Positions 4,016 to 13,545 of a DNA stretch of 15,490 nucleotides are shown here, piece by piece (the stretch's first letter is position 1; each line of letters starts with the position of its first letter). The position numbers and the translations under genes are program-made. The DNA comes from an uncultured Salinimicrobium sp. (GTDB lineage: Bacteria; Bacteroidota; Bacteroidia; Flavobacteriales; Flavobacteriaceae). The stretch spans positions 1-15,490 of the forward strand of contig CAMPJY010000052.1 of assembly GCA_946887025.1 (NCBI GenBank), given 5' to 3'. The notes beneath the pieces were generated by a model. That model saw only the letters and a list, made by a program, of their open reading frames with translations. It was not told where the DNA came from and ran no database searches.

Positions 4016-4074
4016 TAAAAACTTTTCTTTTTCTTTAAAATTAAATACTACATTAGCCATATACAAAACAACGA

Positions 4075-4152
4075 ATGAACAATTTTTCTACCTGGAACGC
4101 TTCTTTTTATTTTTATTTCTATTACGGAGATAAGATCGGGAGCGCCATGTAA
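4075..4152 (+). CDS. Phe/Tyr leader peptide of the aromatic amino acid attenuator
   Basis: A 25-codon open frame from ATG 4075 to TAA 4150-4152. It contains Phe at codons 4, 11, 13 and 15 and Tyr at codons 12, 14, 16 and 17, so codons 11-17 read FYFYFYY, plus a single Trp at codon 7. Eight of 25 residues are the end products of the operon that follows. It sits 21 bases upstream of an intrinsic terminator stem, and 65 bases separate its stop from the pheA ATG. This is the classical layout of a ribosome-sensed leader: shortage of Phe-tRNA or Tyr-tRNA would stall the ribosome in the run, while free passage would bring it to the stop codon over the antiterminator bases. The run is too regular to be chance, and the peptide itself probably has no further function. 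No clear Shine-Dalgarno precedes it, as is usual in this phylum. Confidence 0.88.
   Translation: MNNFSTWNASFYFYFYYGDKIGSAM
4098..4144 (+). promoter_or_regulatory. Predicted protector (1:2) hairpin of the attenuator
   Basis: CGCTTCT at 4098-4104 can pair with GGGAGCG at 4138-4144 (seven pairs, two of them G-U). The loop is 33 bases and contains almost the whole FYFYFYY codon run. A ribosome stalled in the run would cover the 5' arm and release the 3' arm. With no ribosome, or one that has passed and left, this hairpin would sequester the antiterminator bases and favour termination. Deduced by eye without energy calculation. Confidence 0.5.
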
Positions 4153-4183
4153 TTAAATTAAAATTATAGAACGAAATCCCGAT
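4135..4183 (+). promoter_or_regulatory. Predicted antiterminator (2:3) pairing
   Basis: ATCGGGA at 4135-4141, inside leader codons 21-23, is a perfect complement of TCCCGAT at 4177-4183, which is the core of the terminator 5' arm. The loop is 35 bases. This seven-base pairing is mutually exclusive with the 11-bp terminator stem and overlaps the protector pairing. It would form when a ribosome is held on the Phe/Tyr codons and be masked when the ribosome reaches the leader stop at 4150-4152. Confidence 0.6.
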
Positions 4184-4205
4184 GTCCGCATCGGGATTTT
4201 TTTTT
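4174..4205 (+). terminator. Intrinsic terminator of the pheA attenuator
   Basis: Perfect 11-bp stem: AAATCCCGATG (4174-4184), loop TCCG (4185-4188), CATCGGGATTT (4189-4199). The stem runs into nine consecutive T residues (4197-4205). It lies between the leader peptide and pheA, with the pheA ATG only 12 bases after the T-tract, so it cannot serve an upstream gene (gldA points away). Its placement before a coding gene marks it as conditional. Confidence 0.9.
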
Positions 4206-4217
4206 GCAGTAAAACCA

Positions 4218-5045
4218 ATGGAAGAAAAAATCGCAATTCAGGGAATTAAAGGCTCGTTCCATTATCAGGTAGCCCAGGAATGTTTCGGGCGTGATATTCT
4301 GGTGGACGAATGCAGGACCTTTAAAGGGGTAATTGACAGTCTGCTTTCGGGGAGCTCCACTTCGGCCGTTATGGCAATAGAAAATTCCACGGCTGGTTCC
4401 ATTCTCCCGAATTTTGCCCTGATCGATGAAAATAATATCCGCATCACCGGGGAACATTACATTCCCATTCATATGGATCTGATGGCGGTTCCCGGACAGA
4501 AACTGGAGGATATAACTGAAGTGTACTCGCATCCCATCGCATTGCTGCAGTGCAAGAATTTCTTTGAGGATTTTCCTGAAATGAAATTGATTGAAACCTC
4601 TGATACTGCAGAGGCGGCGAGAAAGATTTCTGAAAAAAGATCCTTAGGCATGGCAGCTATCGCAGGGACAGTAGCAGCAGATTTGTTCGGGCTAGAAATC
4701 CTTTCCTCGGGAATCCACAGTATGAAAAACAACGCTACCCGCTTTCTTATCCTCAATGTTGGAAAAAACGGTGCAGCTCCCGATAAGGTGAACAAAGCCT
4801 CCCTGAAATTTGAACTTGATGATCATCACGGAAGCCTTGCCTCTGTCCTGAACATCCTCAATGACTGCAACCTTAACCTTTCCAAGATACAATCCTTACC
4901 CATAGTGGAAACTCCCTGGAAGTATTCCTTTTTCGTAGATGTAACCTTCAATAAATATGAGGAGTATCAAAAAGCAATGGGAATCGTAAAGGTGCTTACG
5001 GAAGAACTGAAAATATTAGGAGAATACAAAAACAACAGAAAATGA
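4218..5045 (+). CDS. pheA: Prephenate dehydratase with C-terminal ACT domain
   Basis: Converts prephenate to phenylpyruvate, the committed step to phenylalanine. The 275-residue monofunctional protein has the dehydratase domain first, with GIKGSFHYQVA (9-19), ENSTAGS (55-61) and the catalytic TRF motif (174-176). The ACT domain follows (about 192-265), with HGSLASVL (204-211) for the GALV region. The Phe-binding ESRP motif is replaced by QSLP (225-228), a variant I associate with Bacteroidota, so feedback control may differ from the classical enzyme. I chose ATG 4218 because an in-frame ATG at 4182 lies inside the attenuator stem and would add 12 residues encoded by the terminator and its T-tract. 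First gene of the attenuated operon; it overlaps the aminotransferase by ATGA. Confidence 0.95.
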   Translation: MEEKIAIQGIKGSFHYQVAQECFGRDILVDECRTFKGVIDSLLSGSSTSAVMAIENSTAGSILPNFALIDENNIRITGEHYIPIHMDLMAVPGQKLEDITEVYSHPIALLQCKNFFEDFPEMKLIETSDTAEAARKISEKRSLGMAAIAGTVAADLFGLEILSSGIHSMKNNATRFLILNVGKNGAAPDKVNKASLKFELDDHHGSLASVLNILNDCNLNLSKIQSLPIVETPWKYSFFVDVTFNKYEEYQKAMGIVKVLTEELKILGEYKNNRK

Positions 5046-6184
5046 TACAGGCAGAAAGACTCACACAGATCAATGAGTACTACTTTTCGAAAAAACTTGA
5101 AGAGGTACGCGCCCTGGAGGCAGGTGGAAAAGAGATCATCAATCTTGGAATTGGCAGCCCCGATCTTGCGCCACCCGAATCGGTGGTAATGGCTTTAAAC
5201 GCAGCCCTTGGGGATGTGGGGGCACATCAATATCAGCCATATAAGGGGCAATTGAAATTCAGGCAGGCCATCCAGGAATTTTATGCCCAGCATTATTCTG
5301 TGGAACTTGGGGAATCAGAAGTTCTTCCTTTAATGGGGAGCAAGGAAGGCATCCTGCACATTTCCATGGCTTTTTTGAATCATGGGGACCAGGTGCTAAT
5401 CCCAAATCCGGGATATCCAACTTATAAATCCGTGACCGAAATGCTGGGTGCAAAACCTCTGTTATACGATCTTTCTGAGGATAATAACTGGCTGCCCGAT
5501 CTGCAGGCGCTGGAAGAGGAGGATCTTTCAAAAGTAAAGATCATGTGGGTGAATTACCCCCATATGCCTACAGGGGCTTCTGCGACGGAAAAGCTTTTTG
5601 TGGACCTGGTGGAATTCGGAAAGAAACACGATATCCTGATTGTTAATGACAACCCCTACAGTTTCATCCTGAACGATAACCAGCTGAGTATCCTGGCTGT
5701 TCCCGGGGCCTTGGATGTTGCCATGGAACTGAATTCCCTCAGCAAGACCTTCAACATGTCAGGCTGGAGGGTCGGGATGCTCTGTGGGAGTCAGGAACAT
5801 CTGAGTACAGTGTTAAAGGTGAAATCCAATATGGACAGCGGAATGTTCTACCCTTTGCAGATCGGGGCCATTGCCGCACTAAAATTGTCAAAGACCTGGT
5901 TCAAGACCCAGAATGAGATCTACCAGAACAGAAAAGAAAAAATACTTGCCCTGGCCAAAGCACTAAATTGTGTTCCCTCAAGGGACCAGGCGGGAATGTT
6001 CATCTGGGCGAAGGTCCCGGAGGGGGAAACTTCAGAAGGTCTGGTTGAAAAGCTGCTGCACCAATACAGCATCTTTGTTGCTCCCGGCTTTATTTTCGGC
6101 AGCCAGGGAGAGGGTTATATCCGATTTTCCCTTTGTGCCGACGCCGATGTAATAGAAAAAGCTTTAAAAAGAGTCGAGCAATGA
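5042..6184 (+). CDS. PLP-dependent class I/II aminotransferase, probably aromatic
   Basis: A 380-residue fold-type I aminotransferase. Visible features are LGIGSPD (35-41), the NYPHMPTG loop with Asn171, the VNDNPYS strand with Asp203 and Tyr206, the PLP Schiff-base Lys235 in NSLSKTFNMSGWRVG, and the carboxylate-binding Arg361 in IRFSL. Motifs resemble the aspartate/LL-diaminopimelate aminotransferase-like group, so sequence alone does not fix the substrate. Its place between pheA and tyrA, with four-base overlaps on both sides (ATGA at 5042-5045 and 6181-6184), suggests it transaminates phenylpyruvate and 4-hydroxyphenylpyruvate to phenylalanine and tyrosine, using glutamate or aspartate. 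Prephenate amination is a less likely alternative because both keto-acid-producing enzymes flank it. Confidence 0.85.
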   Translation: MIQAERLTQINEYYFSKKLEEVRALEAGGKEIINLGIGSPDLAPPESVVMALNAALGDVGAHQYQPYKGQLKFRQAIQEFYAQHYSVELGESEVLPLMGSKEGILHISMAFLNHGDQVLIPNPGYPTYKSVTEMLGAKPLLYDLSEDNNWLPDLQALEEEDLSKVKIMWVNYPHMPTGASATEKLFVDLVEFGKKHDILIVNDNPYSFILNDNQLSILAVPGALDVAMELNSLSKTFNMSGWRVGMLCGSQEHLSTVLKVKSNMDSGMFYPLQIGAIAALKLSKTWFKTQNEIYQNRKEKILALAKALNCVPSRDQAGMFIWAKVPEGETSEGLVEKLLHQYSIFVAPGFIFGSQGEGYIRFSLCADADVIEKALKRVEQ

Positions 6185-7029
6185 AGGTTTGCATCATTGG
6201 AGTTGGACTTATAGGTGGATCTTTTGCGTTGGGTTTGAAGAAGAACGAACCCCAGGTAAAGATCTATGGGATTGACGCCCGGAAAGATCATCTGGAGAAG
6301 GCAAAAAACCTTGGAGTCATAGATGAGGCAGCAGAACTAGGGGAGGTGAGGGATGCCGACCTTGTAATTATCGCCGTTCCCGTAAATGCTGCGCCAAAAG
6401 TACTGGAGGAAGTTCTGGATCTGGTTCATGAAAAATCTTTGGTTATAGACATGGGGTCGACCAAGCAAAGTATCTGTGCCGCGGTGGAAAACCATCCGCG
6501 AAGAAGAAATTTTCTGGCAGCCCATCCCATTGCAGGGACTGAATTCTCGGGTCCTGAGGCTGCTTTTCACGGCTTGTTCGAAGGGAAAACAACAATAATC
6601 TGCGAGGTGGAAAAAACTGCCTTTCAGCTTCAGGAAAAAGCACTGGAAATTTTCAGGAATATGGGGATGAGAATCAGGTATATGAACCCTCAGGCGCACG
6701 ACCGGCATATTGCCTATGTATCTCATCTCTCACACATCAGCGCCTTTATGCTGGGGAAGACGGTTCTTGAAAAGGAAAAGAATGAACGGGACATCTTTGA
6801 CCTAGCAGGAAGTGGATTTGCTTCCACGGTTCGCCTGGCCAAAAGTTCGCCTGCCATGTGGGCTCCTATTTTTGAACAGAATAAGGATAACGTGCTGGAA
6901 ACGCTAACGGAATACATCCAAAACCTGACGGGATTCAAAAGCCTGCTGGAAAATGAAAACTATCCTGAGATATTCAGGGAAATGGAACAGACCAATCATA
7001 TCAAAAAAGTATTAAACGGAATAATTTAA
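6181..7029 (+). CDS. tyrA: Prephenate dehydrogenase
   Basis: Oxidatively decarboxylates prephenate to 4-hydroxyphenylpyruvate in tyrosine synthesis. The 282-residue protein opens with the Rossmann motif GVGLIGGS (7-14); the acidic residue ending the second strand is Asp32. It then shows VIDMGSTKQSI (88-98), the HPIAGTE motif (His115) and the helical-domain AHDRHIAYVSHLSHI (172-186) with the catalytic-region histidines. It ends without an ACT or chorismate-mutase extension, so regulation is probably left to the leader attenuator and to other enzymes of the pathway. ATG 6181 is chosen because it overlaps the aminotransferase stop and begins right at the first strand; upstream in-frame starts lie within the previous gene. 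The next gene follows after 14 bases. Confidence 0.95.
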   Translation: MKVCIIGVGLIGGSFALGLKKNEPQVKIYGIDARKDHLEKAKNLGVIDEAAELGEVRDADLVIIAVPVNAAPKVLEEVLDLVHEKSLVIDMGSTKQSICAAVENHPRRRNFLAAHPIAGTEFSGPEAAFHGLFEGKTTIICEVEKTAFQLQEKALEIFRNMGMRIRYMNPQAHDRHIAYVSHLSHISAFMLGKTVLEKEKNERDIFDLAGSGFASTVRLAKSSPAMWAPIFEQNKDNVLETLTEYIQNLTGFKSLLENENYPEIFREMEQTNHIKKVLNGII

Positions 7030-7043
7030 GATCATAAACAAAA

Positions 7044-8126
7044 ATGGAAAACTCAAAAGAATTAGGAACCTGGCTAAATGCCTTCGGATTAAATCACCCA
7101 TTAGTAATTGCCGGGCCCTGTAGTGCCGAAACTGAAGAACAGGTACTTACCATCGCTCATCAGTTGAAAGACAGCGACGCCACTATCCTGCGCGCGGGGA
7201 TCTGGAAACCAAGAACCCGTCCCGGGAATTTTGAAGGAGTAGGAGCCGAAGGATTAAATTGGCTACAGAGAGCTAAGCAGGAAACAGGAATGATGATATC
7301 TACCGAGGTTGCCAATCCGCAGCATGTGGAGCTGGCCCTGGCGCACGATGTGGACCTGCTGTGGATAGGAGCCAGAAGTACAGTTTCCCCATTCATAGTA
7401 CAGGAAATTGCGGAGGCCTTAAAAGGAACTGATAAAATAGTGTTGGTGAAAAACCCTGTTAACCCGGATCTGGCGCTATGGCTTGGGGCGGTGGAGCGCT
7501 TACACTCCATGGACATCAAAAAACTGGGGGTCATCCACCGTGGTTTCTCTTCGTATGAAAAATCCAAATACAGAAACAATCCGGAATGGCAGATTCCCAT
7601 TGACCTGCAGCGACAGTTCCCCGACCTGCCTATTATCCTGGACCCTTCCCATATTTCAGGAAGACGCGACAATATCTTTGACCTTTGCCAGACAGCTCTT
7701 GATCTGAACTATGACGGGTTGATGGTGGAAACCCATCACGATCCTGACAACGCCTGGAGTGATGCCAGTCAACAGGTGACGCCGGAAACCCTGATACAGA
7801 TCATGCACGACCTGAAAATACGAAAGGAAGCCTCTGAAAGTCAGGACTACCTGAATAAACTGAATGGTTTACGCGCAAAAATAGATATTGCCGATACCCA
7901 ATTACTGAACATCCTTTCCCGCAGGATGAAGATTTCCGATGAAATAGGGAAGGTGAAAAAGTCACAGAACGTGGCAATTCTTCAAAGTCAGCGTTGGGAT
8001 GAGATTCTGAACAAAATGACGAAGGAAGGTGAGGAAAATGGTCTTAGCCAGGATTTTGTAGAGAGTATTTTCAAGGCTATTCACCAGGAATCCATCAACC
8101 ACCAGAAAAAAGTTATTAGCGAATAA
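7044..8126 (+). CDS. Bifunctional DAHP synthase / chorismate mutase
   Basis: A 360-residue fusion. Residues 1 to about 255 form a type I-beta DAHP synthase barrel: AGPCS with metal-ligand Cys26, KPRT (55-58), GAR (109-111), KNP (136-138), HRG (165-167), DPSH with His203, and Glu229. It condenses phosphoenolpyruvate and erythrose 4-phosphate, the entry to the shikimate pathway. After a linker near 258-270, residues 271-355 are an AroQ-type helical chorismate mutase with LRAKIDIADTQLLNILSRR (Arg277, Arg293, Arg294) and Lys303. The mutase converts chorismate to prephenate, substrate of both PheA and TyrA. In related C-terminal fusions from Bacteroidota the mutase domain also acts as the regulatory domain that responds to a pathway product; that is family knowledge, not visible here. 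The cluster thus encodes the first enzyme and the whole Phe/Tyr branch together. Confidence 0.94.
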   Translation: MENSKELGTWLNAFGLNHPLVIAGPCSAETEEQVLTIAHQLKDSDATILRAGIWKPRTRPGNFEGVGAEGLNWLQRAKQETGMMISTEVANPQHVELALAHDVDLLWIGARSTVSPFIVQEIAEALKGTDKIVLVKNPVNPDLALWLGAVERLHSMDIKKLGVIHRGFSSYEKSKYRNNPEWQIPIDLQRQFPDLPIILDPSHISGRRDNIFDLCQTALDLNYDGLMVETHHDPDNAWSDASQQVTPETLIQIMHDLKIRKEASESQDYLNKLNGLRAKIDIADTQLLNILSRRMKISDEIGKVKKSQNVAILQSQRWDEILNKMTKEGEENGLSQDFVESIFKAIHQESINHQKKVISE

Positions 8127-11532: not shown

Positions 11533-13545
11533 ATGAAAAAAGCCTTTACCCTTATTCTCCTGCTATTTGCTTTCCAGGGACTATTGGCCCAGGATTTTAA
11601 ATTCGGAAAAGTCTCCAAAGAGGAGGTGTTGGAAAAAGAACATCCTGAGAATAAGGATGCCGATGCAGCAGTGCTTTTCCGGGAGCACAAAGTTTATTAC
11701 AAGACTAGTCAGAATTCAGGATTTACCCTGGTAACTGAGGTACATGAACGTATTAAAATATACAACAAGGACGGCTTCGACTGGGCCAACAAGGAAATTT
11801 TTTACTACCAGAATGGATCTGACCGGGAAAACGTCATAGGAATCAAGGGTTATACCTACAATATCGAGGATGGGAAGCTGGTGGAGGAAAAATTGCGGAA
11901 AGACGGGATCTTCGATGAGGAGGTGAATAAGTATCGCCTTAAAACCACCCTGACCATGCCGGAGGTAAAAGAAGGAAGTGTAGTGGAATACCAGTATACG
12001 CTGGAATCTCCTTTCCTGATTTCGATCGATGAGATCCCGCTGCAGTACACCATTCCCATAAACAGATTGGAAGCCCAGGTGACCATTCCCGAATATCTCG
12101 TATTCAGGAAATATTTTAATCTGAAATCTCCCCTTTTGTTTGAGATCGATGAAAGCATGAAAAGCAACAGTTTCACTGTTACTTCCAAAACAAGATCGGG
12201 CCACCGGGTTCAAACTACTTCATTTAACACTTCCAAAGTCGACTATAAAGAGAATGTCTATTCCATTACCAAGGAGGATATCCCTGCCTTAAAGGATGAG
12301 GCTTACGTGGATTATCTGAAGAATTATGCTGCCTACATGCGCTGGGAGCTACAATATACCCAGTTCCCGAATTCTGTTGTGGAAACCTATACCCAGTCCT
12401 GGGAAAGTGTAACAAAAACGGTATACAACGATGGAAATTATGCCAGGGAACTCGGTCGCAATGGATTCTTTGAGGAGGAAGTTGATGCTCTTGTGAAGGG
12501 AATTCAGGACCCGGAGCAAAAGGCCAGGCTTATTTATAATTTTGTCAGGAACAAGGTCAAGTGGAATGAATTCTATGGATTCCTTCCCGATAAAGGTGGA
12601 AGAGCTGCTTATAAGGATGGGGAAGGTAATGTTGGTGACATTAATCTGCTTTTGACAGCTATGCTGAAATATGCAGGTCTGAATGCCAATCCGGTTCTTG
12701 TGAGTACGCAGGATAACGGGATACCACTTTTCCCTACCCGTCAGGGATTCAATTATCTGGTGTCGGGTCTGCAGCTCCCGGACCAATTCCTTCTACTCGA
12801 TGCGACCGATCCTAATGCTGCTTTGGGAGAGCTGCCCGAGAGAGCCAGAAACTGGCAGGGAAGGCTGATCACGGGTGCTGAGACCTCCGAGTGGGTTAAC
12901 CTGAGGCCTAATACCAAATCTGGAAGTACCTCCACGATAAACCTCCAGTTTGATGAAAATTTCGGGGTTCAGGGAAAGCTAACCGATATGTACAACGGGT
13001 TTTATGCCAAATCCTTTCGGGAGGAATTTGCAGGAGTCAATGCCGAGAAATATGTGGAAATCCTTGAAAAGGATAAAGGAAATATCAGCATTACCGACCT
13101 GAAAACTGAAAACGAAAAGAAAATAGGGGAGACCATAAAACAATCCTATACTTTCAGTCTACAGGATGAGATCGAAGTGATCGAAGACCGGGTGTATTTT
13201 CAACCGCTCTTATTTGAAGCTGTTGACGAAAATCCATTTAAGGCCGAGGAACGACAGTATCCGATTTCTTTCAACTTCCCTTCTGTAAAAGAGACCACTG
13301 TGAACATTCTGGTGCCAGAGGGTTATGTAGTAGAAAGCCTTCCTGAAAGTTTAATTGTGGATCTCAATGGAGGTGCGGGAAGTTTTAAATACCTTGTGCA
13401 CCAGAACGGGCAATTCCTTCGGGTGAATACAGTGGTGGATTTGAATAACATATTTTATTCTGCTGCCGATTATAAGGCCCTGAAGGATTTTTATGGTAAA
13501 ATTGTTGAAAAACAAACGGAAGCCATTGTGCTAAAAAGAATATAA
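11533..13545 (+). CDS. DUF3857 protein with degenerate transglutaminase domain
   Basis: A 670-residue paralogue of the preceding gene, with a signal peptide (1-20, ending GLLAQ), an N-terminal DUF3857 region (about 60-250), a transglutaminase-like region (about 325-430) and a C-terminal beta domain. Aligning the core by eye, GDCKAL of the neighbour corresponds to GDINLL here, placing Ile370 at the catalytic Cys. GNHVIL corresponds to GFNYLV, placing Asn407 at the His. Only the acidic residue remains (Asp423 in LLDATDP). It therefore looks like a non-catalytic member, possibly a partner or binding protein. The frame is intact and the rest of the domain is well kept, so it is not a decaying pseudogene. 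The MazG-like gene begins one base after its stop. Confidence 0.85.
   Translation: MKKAFTLILLLFAFQGLLAQDFKFGKVSKEEVLEKEHPENKDADAAVLFREHKVYYKTSQNSGFTLVTEVHERIKIYNKDGFDWANKEIFYYQNGSDRENVIGIKGYTYNIEDGKLVEEKLRKDGIFDEEVNKYRLKTTLTMPEVKEGSVVEYQYTLESPFLISIDEIPLQYTIPINRLEAQVTIPEYLVFRKYFNLKSPLLFEIDESMKSNSFTVTSKTRSGHRVQTTSFNTSKVDYKENVYSITKEDIPALKDEAYVDYLKNYAAYMRWELQYTQFPNSVVETYTQSWESVTKTVYNDGNYARELGRNGFFEEEVDALVKGIQDPEQKARLIYNFVRNKVKWNEFYGFLPDKGGRAAYKDGEGNVGDINLLLTAMLKYAGLNANPVLVSTQDNGIPLFPTRQGFNYLVSGLQLPDQFLLLDATDPNAALGELPERARNWQGRLITGAETSEWVNLRPNTKSGSTSTINLQFDENFGVQGKLTDMYNGFYAKSFREEFAGVNAEKYVEILEKDKGNISITDLKTENEKKIGETIKQSYTFSLQDEIEVIEDRVYFQPLLFEAVDENPFKAEERQYPISFNFPSVKETTVNILVPEGYVVESLPESLIVDLNGGAGSFKYLVHQNGQFLRVNTVVDLNNIFYSAADYKALKDFYGKIVEKQTEAIVLKRI

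Follow-up and report, generated by a model that had tools for sequence, protein, structure and literature searches.

A probable Phe/Tyr leader-peptide attenuator before pheA in Salinimicrobium, with co-varying counterparts in other Bacteroidota

Background

Leader-peptide attenuation is a classic regulatory switch known from E. coli. The enteric pheL/pheA attenuator, which controls prephenate dehydratase, combines a Phe-rich leader peptide with three alternative pairings of the leader RNA, referred to as 1:2, 2:3 and 3:4. Attenuation across bacteria was reportedly treated by Lopatovskaya et al. in 2010, in a study that may already list leaders from Bacteroidota.

For Flavobacterium psychrophilum, published work presents strong clues that operons for amino-acid biosynthesis are preceded by leader-peptide attenuators (PMC9723704, ISME Commun. 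2021). According to section 19 of that paper, the 5' elements located before pheA and hisG, among others, are present in other genera and have no Rfam hits, and the element before pheA is conserved in other Flavobacteriaceae (PMC9723704). Short frames reminiscent of leader peptides are also described for Bacteroides thetaiotaomicron in a further report (PMC7366714). The first-pass annotation of the DNA considered here had left open whether a flavobacterial case was already on record; the answer is a partial one, in that a conserved pheA 5' element and clues to attenuation are in print (PMC9723704). An account of the phylum-wide pattern was not found in the literature searched, with subscription papers and supplements lying beyond its reach.

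The pheA operon of Salinimicrobium

The window, that is, the whole stretch of 15,490 nucleotides analyzed, comes from an uncultured Salinimicrobium sp. and carries a pheA operon, preceded by what is probably (about 93%) a transcription attenuator that works through the ribosome, like those at trpL and pheL. Profile matches agree with the gene order first proposed for the region downstream of the attenuator, as follows.

4218..5045, plus strand: pheA, prephenate dehydratase (PF00800), with the ATG at 4218 as the most likely start
5042..6184, plus strand: class I/II aminotransferase (PF00155)
6187..7029, plus strand: tyrA, prephenate dehydrogenase (NF006307 above its cut-off, PF02153)
7044..8126, plus strand: fusion of DAHP synthase and chorismate mutase type II (PF00793, PF01817)

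The pheA start had been described as easily misplaced at 4182, and the ATG at this position, inside the terminator stem, does mechanically open the pheA frame 12 codons ahead of the ATG at 4218, so that automatic gene callers may misplace it there. Since the pheA profile matches begin at residues 12-17 of the frame opened at 4182, the likely start to annotate is not 4182 but the ATG at 4218 (residue 13), which is also the residue where the PheA matches of several relatives begin. Elsewhere in the window, the frames 1087-2187 and 2139-2936 have no NCBIfam match at 1e-8, and the frame 11533-13545 has no Pfam match at the same threshold.

Anatomy of the leader region

The region between the likely promoter and pheA holds the following features.

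4049..4056, plus strand: likely -7 promoter element TACATTAG, an instance of the TANNTTWG found upstream of leaders
4075..4152, plus strand: leader peptide frame MNNFSTWNASFYFYFYYGDKIGSAM plus stop, 25 aa from ATG to TAA, with an equivalent in 109 of the 126 distinct regions upstream of pheA, window included
4089..4104, plus strand: segment 1, 5' arm of the 1:2 hairpin, whose partner in the window's best fold consists of stretches of 4138-4151 (fold of 4061-4207; own-partner preference in 70 leaders)
4105..4125, plus strand: Phe/Tyr codon run TTT TAT TTT TAT TTC TAT TAC, the proposed stall site, compared with the runs of relatives
4135..4141, plus strand: segment 2 core ATCGGGA, the antiterminator strand, whose 3' part (4138-4141) is also used by the 1:2 hairpin
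4173..4184, plus strand: segment 3, 5' arm of the terminator and alternative partner of segment 2 (core 4177-4183)
4189..4205, plus strand: segment 4, 3' arm of the terminator and T run

The promoter element is likely to be a -7 element of the Bacteroidota type TAnnTTTG. TANNTTWG stands at a near-fixed distance upstream of 54 of 70 non-redundant leaders (described below), where 7.6 would be expected from shuffles, and transcription in the window would start near 4060-4063. Neither this element nor the 1:2 hairpin had been part of the first-pass annotation.

The frame itself had been noticed in that annotation as 25 codons with the run FYFYFYY, and it was recovered as such, with phenylalanine or tyrosine in seven of the seven codons at 4105-4125. 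It thus abounds in codons for the two amino acids whose synthesis the operon serves. A scan for chance occurrences in the window together with eight loci from named relatives (L001-L008), 102,036 bases in all, gave 2256 frames of 8-60 aa, of which 19 have at least six aromatic residues in nine; the nine frames reaching at least seven are all pheA leaders, with none elsewhere in the same set.

As for the terminator, the perfect 11-bp stem 21 bases past the leader stop that had been claimed is present (4174-4184 with 4189-4199), and a terminator scan extends it to 12 pairs over 4173-4200. The nine T claimed at 4197-4205 are also there, but not all of them trail the stem: three (11-bp stem) or four (12-bp stem) lie within it, leaving six or five unpaired. 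Going by the letters, an intrinsic terminator thus lies at 4173-4205, between the leader and the first structural gene. The ATCGGGA at 4135-4141 was confirmed as the exact complement of 4177-4183. A complement of seven nucleotides could by itself be due to chance; its co-variation across relatives, presented below, could hardly be.

The RNA from 4061 to 4207 folds with a z score of -4.77, and its best fold consists of a hairpin of the 1:2 type (4089-4104 with 4138-4151), an inner hairpin (4111-4120 with 4126-4135), and the terminator. No match to any of 4227 Rfam models was found in the window, nor one at gathering score to the family Phe_leader. A riboswitch was considered as well, and the lack of an Rfam match in the window leaves it unsupported.

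Proposed mechanism

The proposed sequence of events begins with the RNA polymerase starting near 4060 and a ribosome entering the 25-codon leader. Given an ample supply of charged tRNA-Phe and tRNA-Tyr, the ribosome would reach the stop codon at 4150-4152 and mask segment 2; segments 3 and 4 would then form the terminator, and the RNA would end near 4205. When either tRNA is scarce, the ribosome would instead stall within 4105-4125, masking segment 1 or sitting between segments 1 and 2, and thereby hinder the 1:2 hairpin. Segment 2, left free just beyond the leading edge of the stalled ribosome, would pair with segment 3 as soon as the latter is made, preventing the terminator and allowing transcription of pheA, the aminotransferase, tyrA, and the DAHP synthase/chorismate mutase gene. 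Without a ribosome, the 1:2 hairpin is predicted to form and the terminator to win.

When folding was calculated with positions 4096-4134 masked to mimic a stalled ribosome and the RNA ending at 4188, the 2:3 helix came out best (-14.4 kcal/mol). Extending the masked RNA to its full length makes the terminator the best fold at equilibrium, and timing, the order in which the segments are synthesized, must therefore decide. Among 70 leaders, the calculated bare 2:3 duplex is as strong as the terminator or stronger in 22.

Masking by a ribosome at the stop codon fits the window, where segment 2 sits 9-15 nt ahead of that codon. This step may not be equally plausible in every relative, since 27 of the 70 leaders have a segment 2 whose start precedes the end of the stop codon by more than 20 nt, too far for complete coverage by a ribosome bound at the stop.

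Distribution among relatives

The closest comparison involves eight loci from named genomes, with PheA identities of 60-62% for Gillisia and Salinimicrobium and 55% for one Flavobacteriaceae MAG; the leader-terminator arrangement is present in all eight. Wider sampling took as its reference the genome that carries the Salinimicrobium marinum locus (L008). PheA matches were obtained in 46 of 60 relatives of this genome, 125 of 246 genomes from its order, and at least 215 of 247 from its phylum. Six duplicate loci (L009-L012, L015, and L016, lying on contigs already represented by L002-L006 and L008) were left out of the count. The examination covered 126 distinct regions upstream of pheA, the window included and mostly from the closer matches, followed by 20 more distant ones.

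A strict script, requiring at least five aromatic residues in nine plus a terminator, accepted 104 of the 126 regions, and 101 of these have at least six aromatic residues in nine. A looser script recovered a further four leaders (L051, L092, L117, and L122), and inspection by eye one (L118), bringing the regions with an F/Y-run leader and a terminator to 109 of 126, window included. The length of the frame, counted from the nearest in-frame ATG, is 17-30 aa in 99 of the 103 strict leaders with such an ATG. Two loci, L108 and L118, contain two tandem F/Y-run frames at a distance of about 90-325 nt upstream of the pheA match, and a terminator-like stem comes after each frame (the stems having been read partly by eye), as in L108 with MTQYTGRFYFSYYFYYAHA and then MPASVFFYYGYYYFFFTKKRGPVCQS. 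These tandem leaders would represent a possible double attenuator.

No leader was found in the remaining 17 regions (L022, L023, L048, L052, L053, L088-L090, L095-L097, L101, L103, L104, and L129-L131). Five of them (L052, L053, and L129-L131) belong to distant PheA proteins, with E values of 4.9e-47 or weaker, and their exclusion gives 109 of 121. Four others (L095, L096, L103, and L104) come from genomes of about 0.6 Mb. At L088, L089, and L090, which also lack a leader, pheA lies directly behind aroA. The 20 further distant loci, with E values from 8.6e-45 to 1.9e-31 among the matches listed and presumably largely Bacteroidales-like, yielded no leader in the 600 nt before the match; none reaches six aromatic residues in nine, and two (L145 and L150) reach five.

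The neighborhood of the leader was compared in 70 longer loci, where a gldA match is present in 39 and the aminotransferase in 66. A leader without a neighboring gldA match occurs at 27 loci (one of which, L035, is shortened by the contig end), which ties the leader to pheA rather than to the gene on its upstream side.

Co-variation and spacing of the alternative pairings

For the comparison of pairings, 34 near-duplicates were removed from the 104 strict leaders, giving a non-redundant set of 70; the five recovered leaders stand outside this set. Pairing of the stretch between codon run and terminator averages -13.0 kcal/mol with the 5' arm of its own terminator, against -8.4 for swapped partners (sd 0.29, z -15.7) and -6.0 for shuffled stretches, and the own-partner value was reached in none of 20,000 permutations. 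The permutations ignore descent; as relatedness should favor the swapped partners, the test should be conservative. When all 70 terminators are ranked for each leader, only 15 leaders have their own in first place and 34 have it within the top five, because many terminator arms resemble each other. Unbroken 2:3 helices of at least 7 bp are found in 46 of 70 own pairs against 26.9% of swapped ones, and helices of at least 8 bp in 29 of 70 against 8.4%. Counting paired bases only, the 70 leaders hold 68 distinct arm pairs and 62 distinct segment 3 strings, such as ATCGGGA/TCCCGAT and CATGAGACT/AGTCTCGTG. An antiterminator that excludes the terminator is thus maintained by co-variation.

The competing 1:2 hairpin, present in the fold of the window, shows the same preference in the 70 leaders (-13.2 for own against -9.3 for swapped partners, reached in 0 of 5000 permutations; -8.35 against -6.81 with a narrower stretch, again 0 of 5000). 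What was found in close kin, order, and phylum is therefore the opposite of the lack of conservation that the first-pass annotation had named as fatal to its own proposal: the frame, the terminator, and the antiterminator are conserved, and the arms co-vary. Its reading of the locus as an attenuator of a Phe/Tyr operon gains support from these comparisons.

Phenylalanine and tyrosine are concentrated in the run: F and Y make up 576 of 1029 residues within the 15-aa segment that it closes, against 28 of 549 further on. Segment 2 is placed at a near-fixed distance from the codon run, starting a median of 9 nt past the last aromatic codon (IQR 7.25-11, sd 3.0) in the 70 leaders. Measured from the stop codon its start is more scattered (sd 8.6), and shuffled stretches give a median of 22 with an sd of 14. 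A ribosome with the last aromatic codon in its A site should cover about 9 nt beyond that codon, which puts the start of segment 2 roughly at the edge of a stalled ribosome. Taking this footprint as a general value, the spacing would leave segment 2 free with a ribosome stalled at the run.

Candidate His and Trp leaders at other loci

Candidate leaders with runs of other amino acids precede other biosynthetic genes in the genomes of the relatives. The gene hisG was found in 29 of 40 relatives, and all 29 loci (L152-L180) have a frame with three to six His in nine residues, e.g., QLHHHHSHSFALAR, together with a terminator, within 260 nt before the match. The 2:3 pairing prefers its own partner here too (-13.2 against -10.9, 0 of 5000), a preference weaker than at pheA and calculated with redundant loci included. 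In a search of the 40 relatives for the trpE family, nothing scored above the curated cut-off. Among the best 29 trpE-like loci (L207-L235), 25 have a frame with at least two Trp in nine residues, mostly as WWW, within 240 nt before the match; no Trp-run frame was seen at L218-L220 and L234. The trpE-like loci often share a nearly constant terminator, AAAGGCTTGTC/GACAAGCCTTT. Regions upstream of ilvD contain frames rich in Ile, Leu, and Val that are too unspecific to judge, and these were left uncounted.

On balance, it seems more likely than not that an old attenuation platform, with leaders for Phe/Tyr, His, and Trp, is common to much of Bacteroidota. Its antiterminators would start at the leading edge of the stalled ribosome, and its Phe/Tyr leader may respond to each of the three aromatic amino acids. 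Such a platform would imply tight coupling of transcription and translation from the first dozen or so codons. The ribosomes of Bacteroidia fail to recognize Shine-Dalgarno sequences, as reported in PMC9976891; the platform, if true, would thus mean coupling in a phylum that initiates translation by other means.

Alternative readings

One addition to the attenuator reading, compatible with it, is that tryptophan is also sensed, so that Phe, Tyr, and Trp would all act on the operon. We regard this as tentative and somewhat doubtful. The DAHP synthase at the end of the operon would fit it, and so would the residue composition of the leaders: within the 15-aa segment ending with the run, Trp accounts for 36 of the 449 non-F/Y residues (last residue omitted), against 1 of 549 after the run, with 37 of 70 leaders having a Trp in the segment. 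The bases of TGG, however, are paired in the 1:2 hairpin in 78 of 105 cases, against 975 of 2415 for other codons, suggesting that the codon may be kept for pairing, and the Trp-run frames at 25 of 29 trpE-like loci would give the relatives a Trp leader of their own.

It is far less probable that the terminator acts constitutively or responds to a ligand or protein, such as an aromatic-amino-acid riboswitch or an RNA-binding protein, with the F/Y frame not being the sensor. Left to itself, the whole RNA folds best with the terminator formed, and translation of the leader is a predicted step, both of which agree with this explanation. Against it, the run stays Phe/Tyr across otherwise differing sequences, hisG and most trpE-like loci have runs of the residue that matches their own pathway, segment 2 is placed more tightly relative to the run than to the stop, and Rfam offers no match. 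That the frame is a small functional protein followed by an ordinary terminator is the least credible explanation, as the residues after the run differ between clades while their DNA tracks the terminator arm, and two genomes have two such frames in tandem, despite the similar length of the frame in relatives.

The ribosome-mediated attenuator remains the preferred reading. It extends leader-peptide attenuation, with alternative pairings backed by co-variation, to a phylum that starts translation differently, and it offers a sequence-based sign of transcription-translation coupling in Bacteroidota. The position of segment 2, about 9 nt past the last regulatory codon, provides a rule of thumb for finding such leaders, and the pheA leader is a ready test system.

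Comparison with known systems

The Salinimicrobium locus resembles the enteric pheL/pheA attenuator in its Phe-rich leader, its alternative 1:2, 2:3, and 3:4 pairings, and the control of a prephenate dehydratase gene, here as predicted from the DNA. It differs in that the leader mixes Phe and Tyr codons, the operon also holds tyrA and the DAHP synthase/chorismate mutase gene, the window has no Rfam match, and the stretch before the leader ATG (ACAAAACAACGA) has no purine block resembling a Shine-Dalgarno sequence. With trpL and hisL it shares a run of cognate codons, a terminator, and alternative pairing; the amino acid is a different one, and the look-alikes before hisG and trpE-like genes were seen in the genomes of relatives and not in the window.

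The pheA element reported for F. psychrophilum lies before the same gene, is likewise conserved in Flavobacteriaceae, and has no Rfam hit; section 19 of that paper describes neither a peptide nor pairing arms and names no attenuated operons (PMC9723704). The finding at the Salinimicrobium pheA locus is real and partly in print already, and the predicted mechanism is held with high confidence on the basis of sequence. To this the present comparison adds the distribution of the leader beyond the family, the own-partner preference of its alternative pairings, and the spacing that puts segment 2 at the edge of the ribosome.
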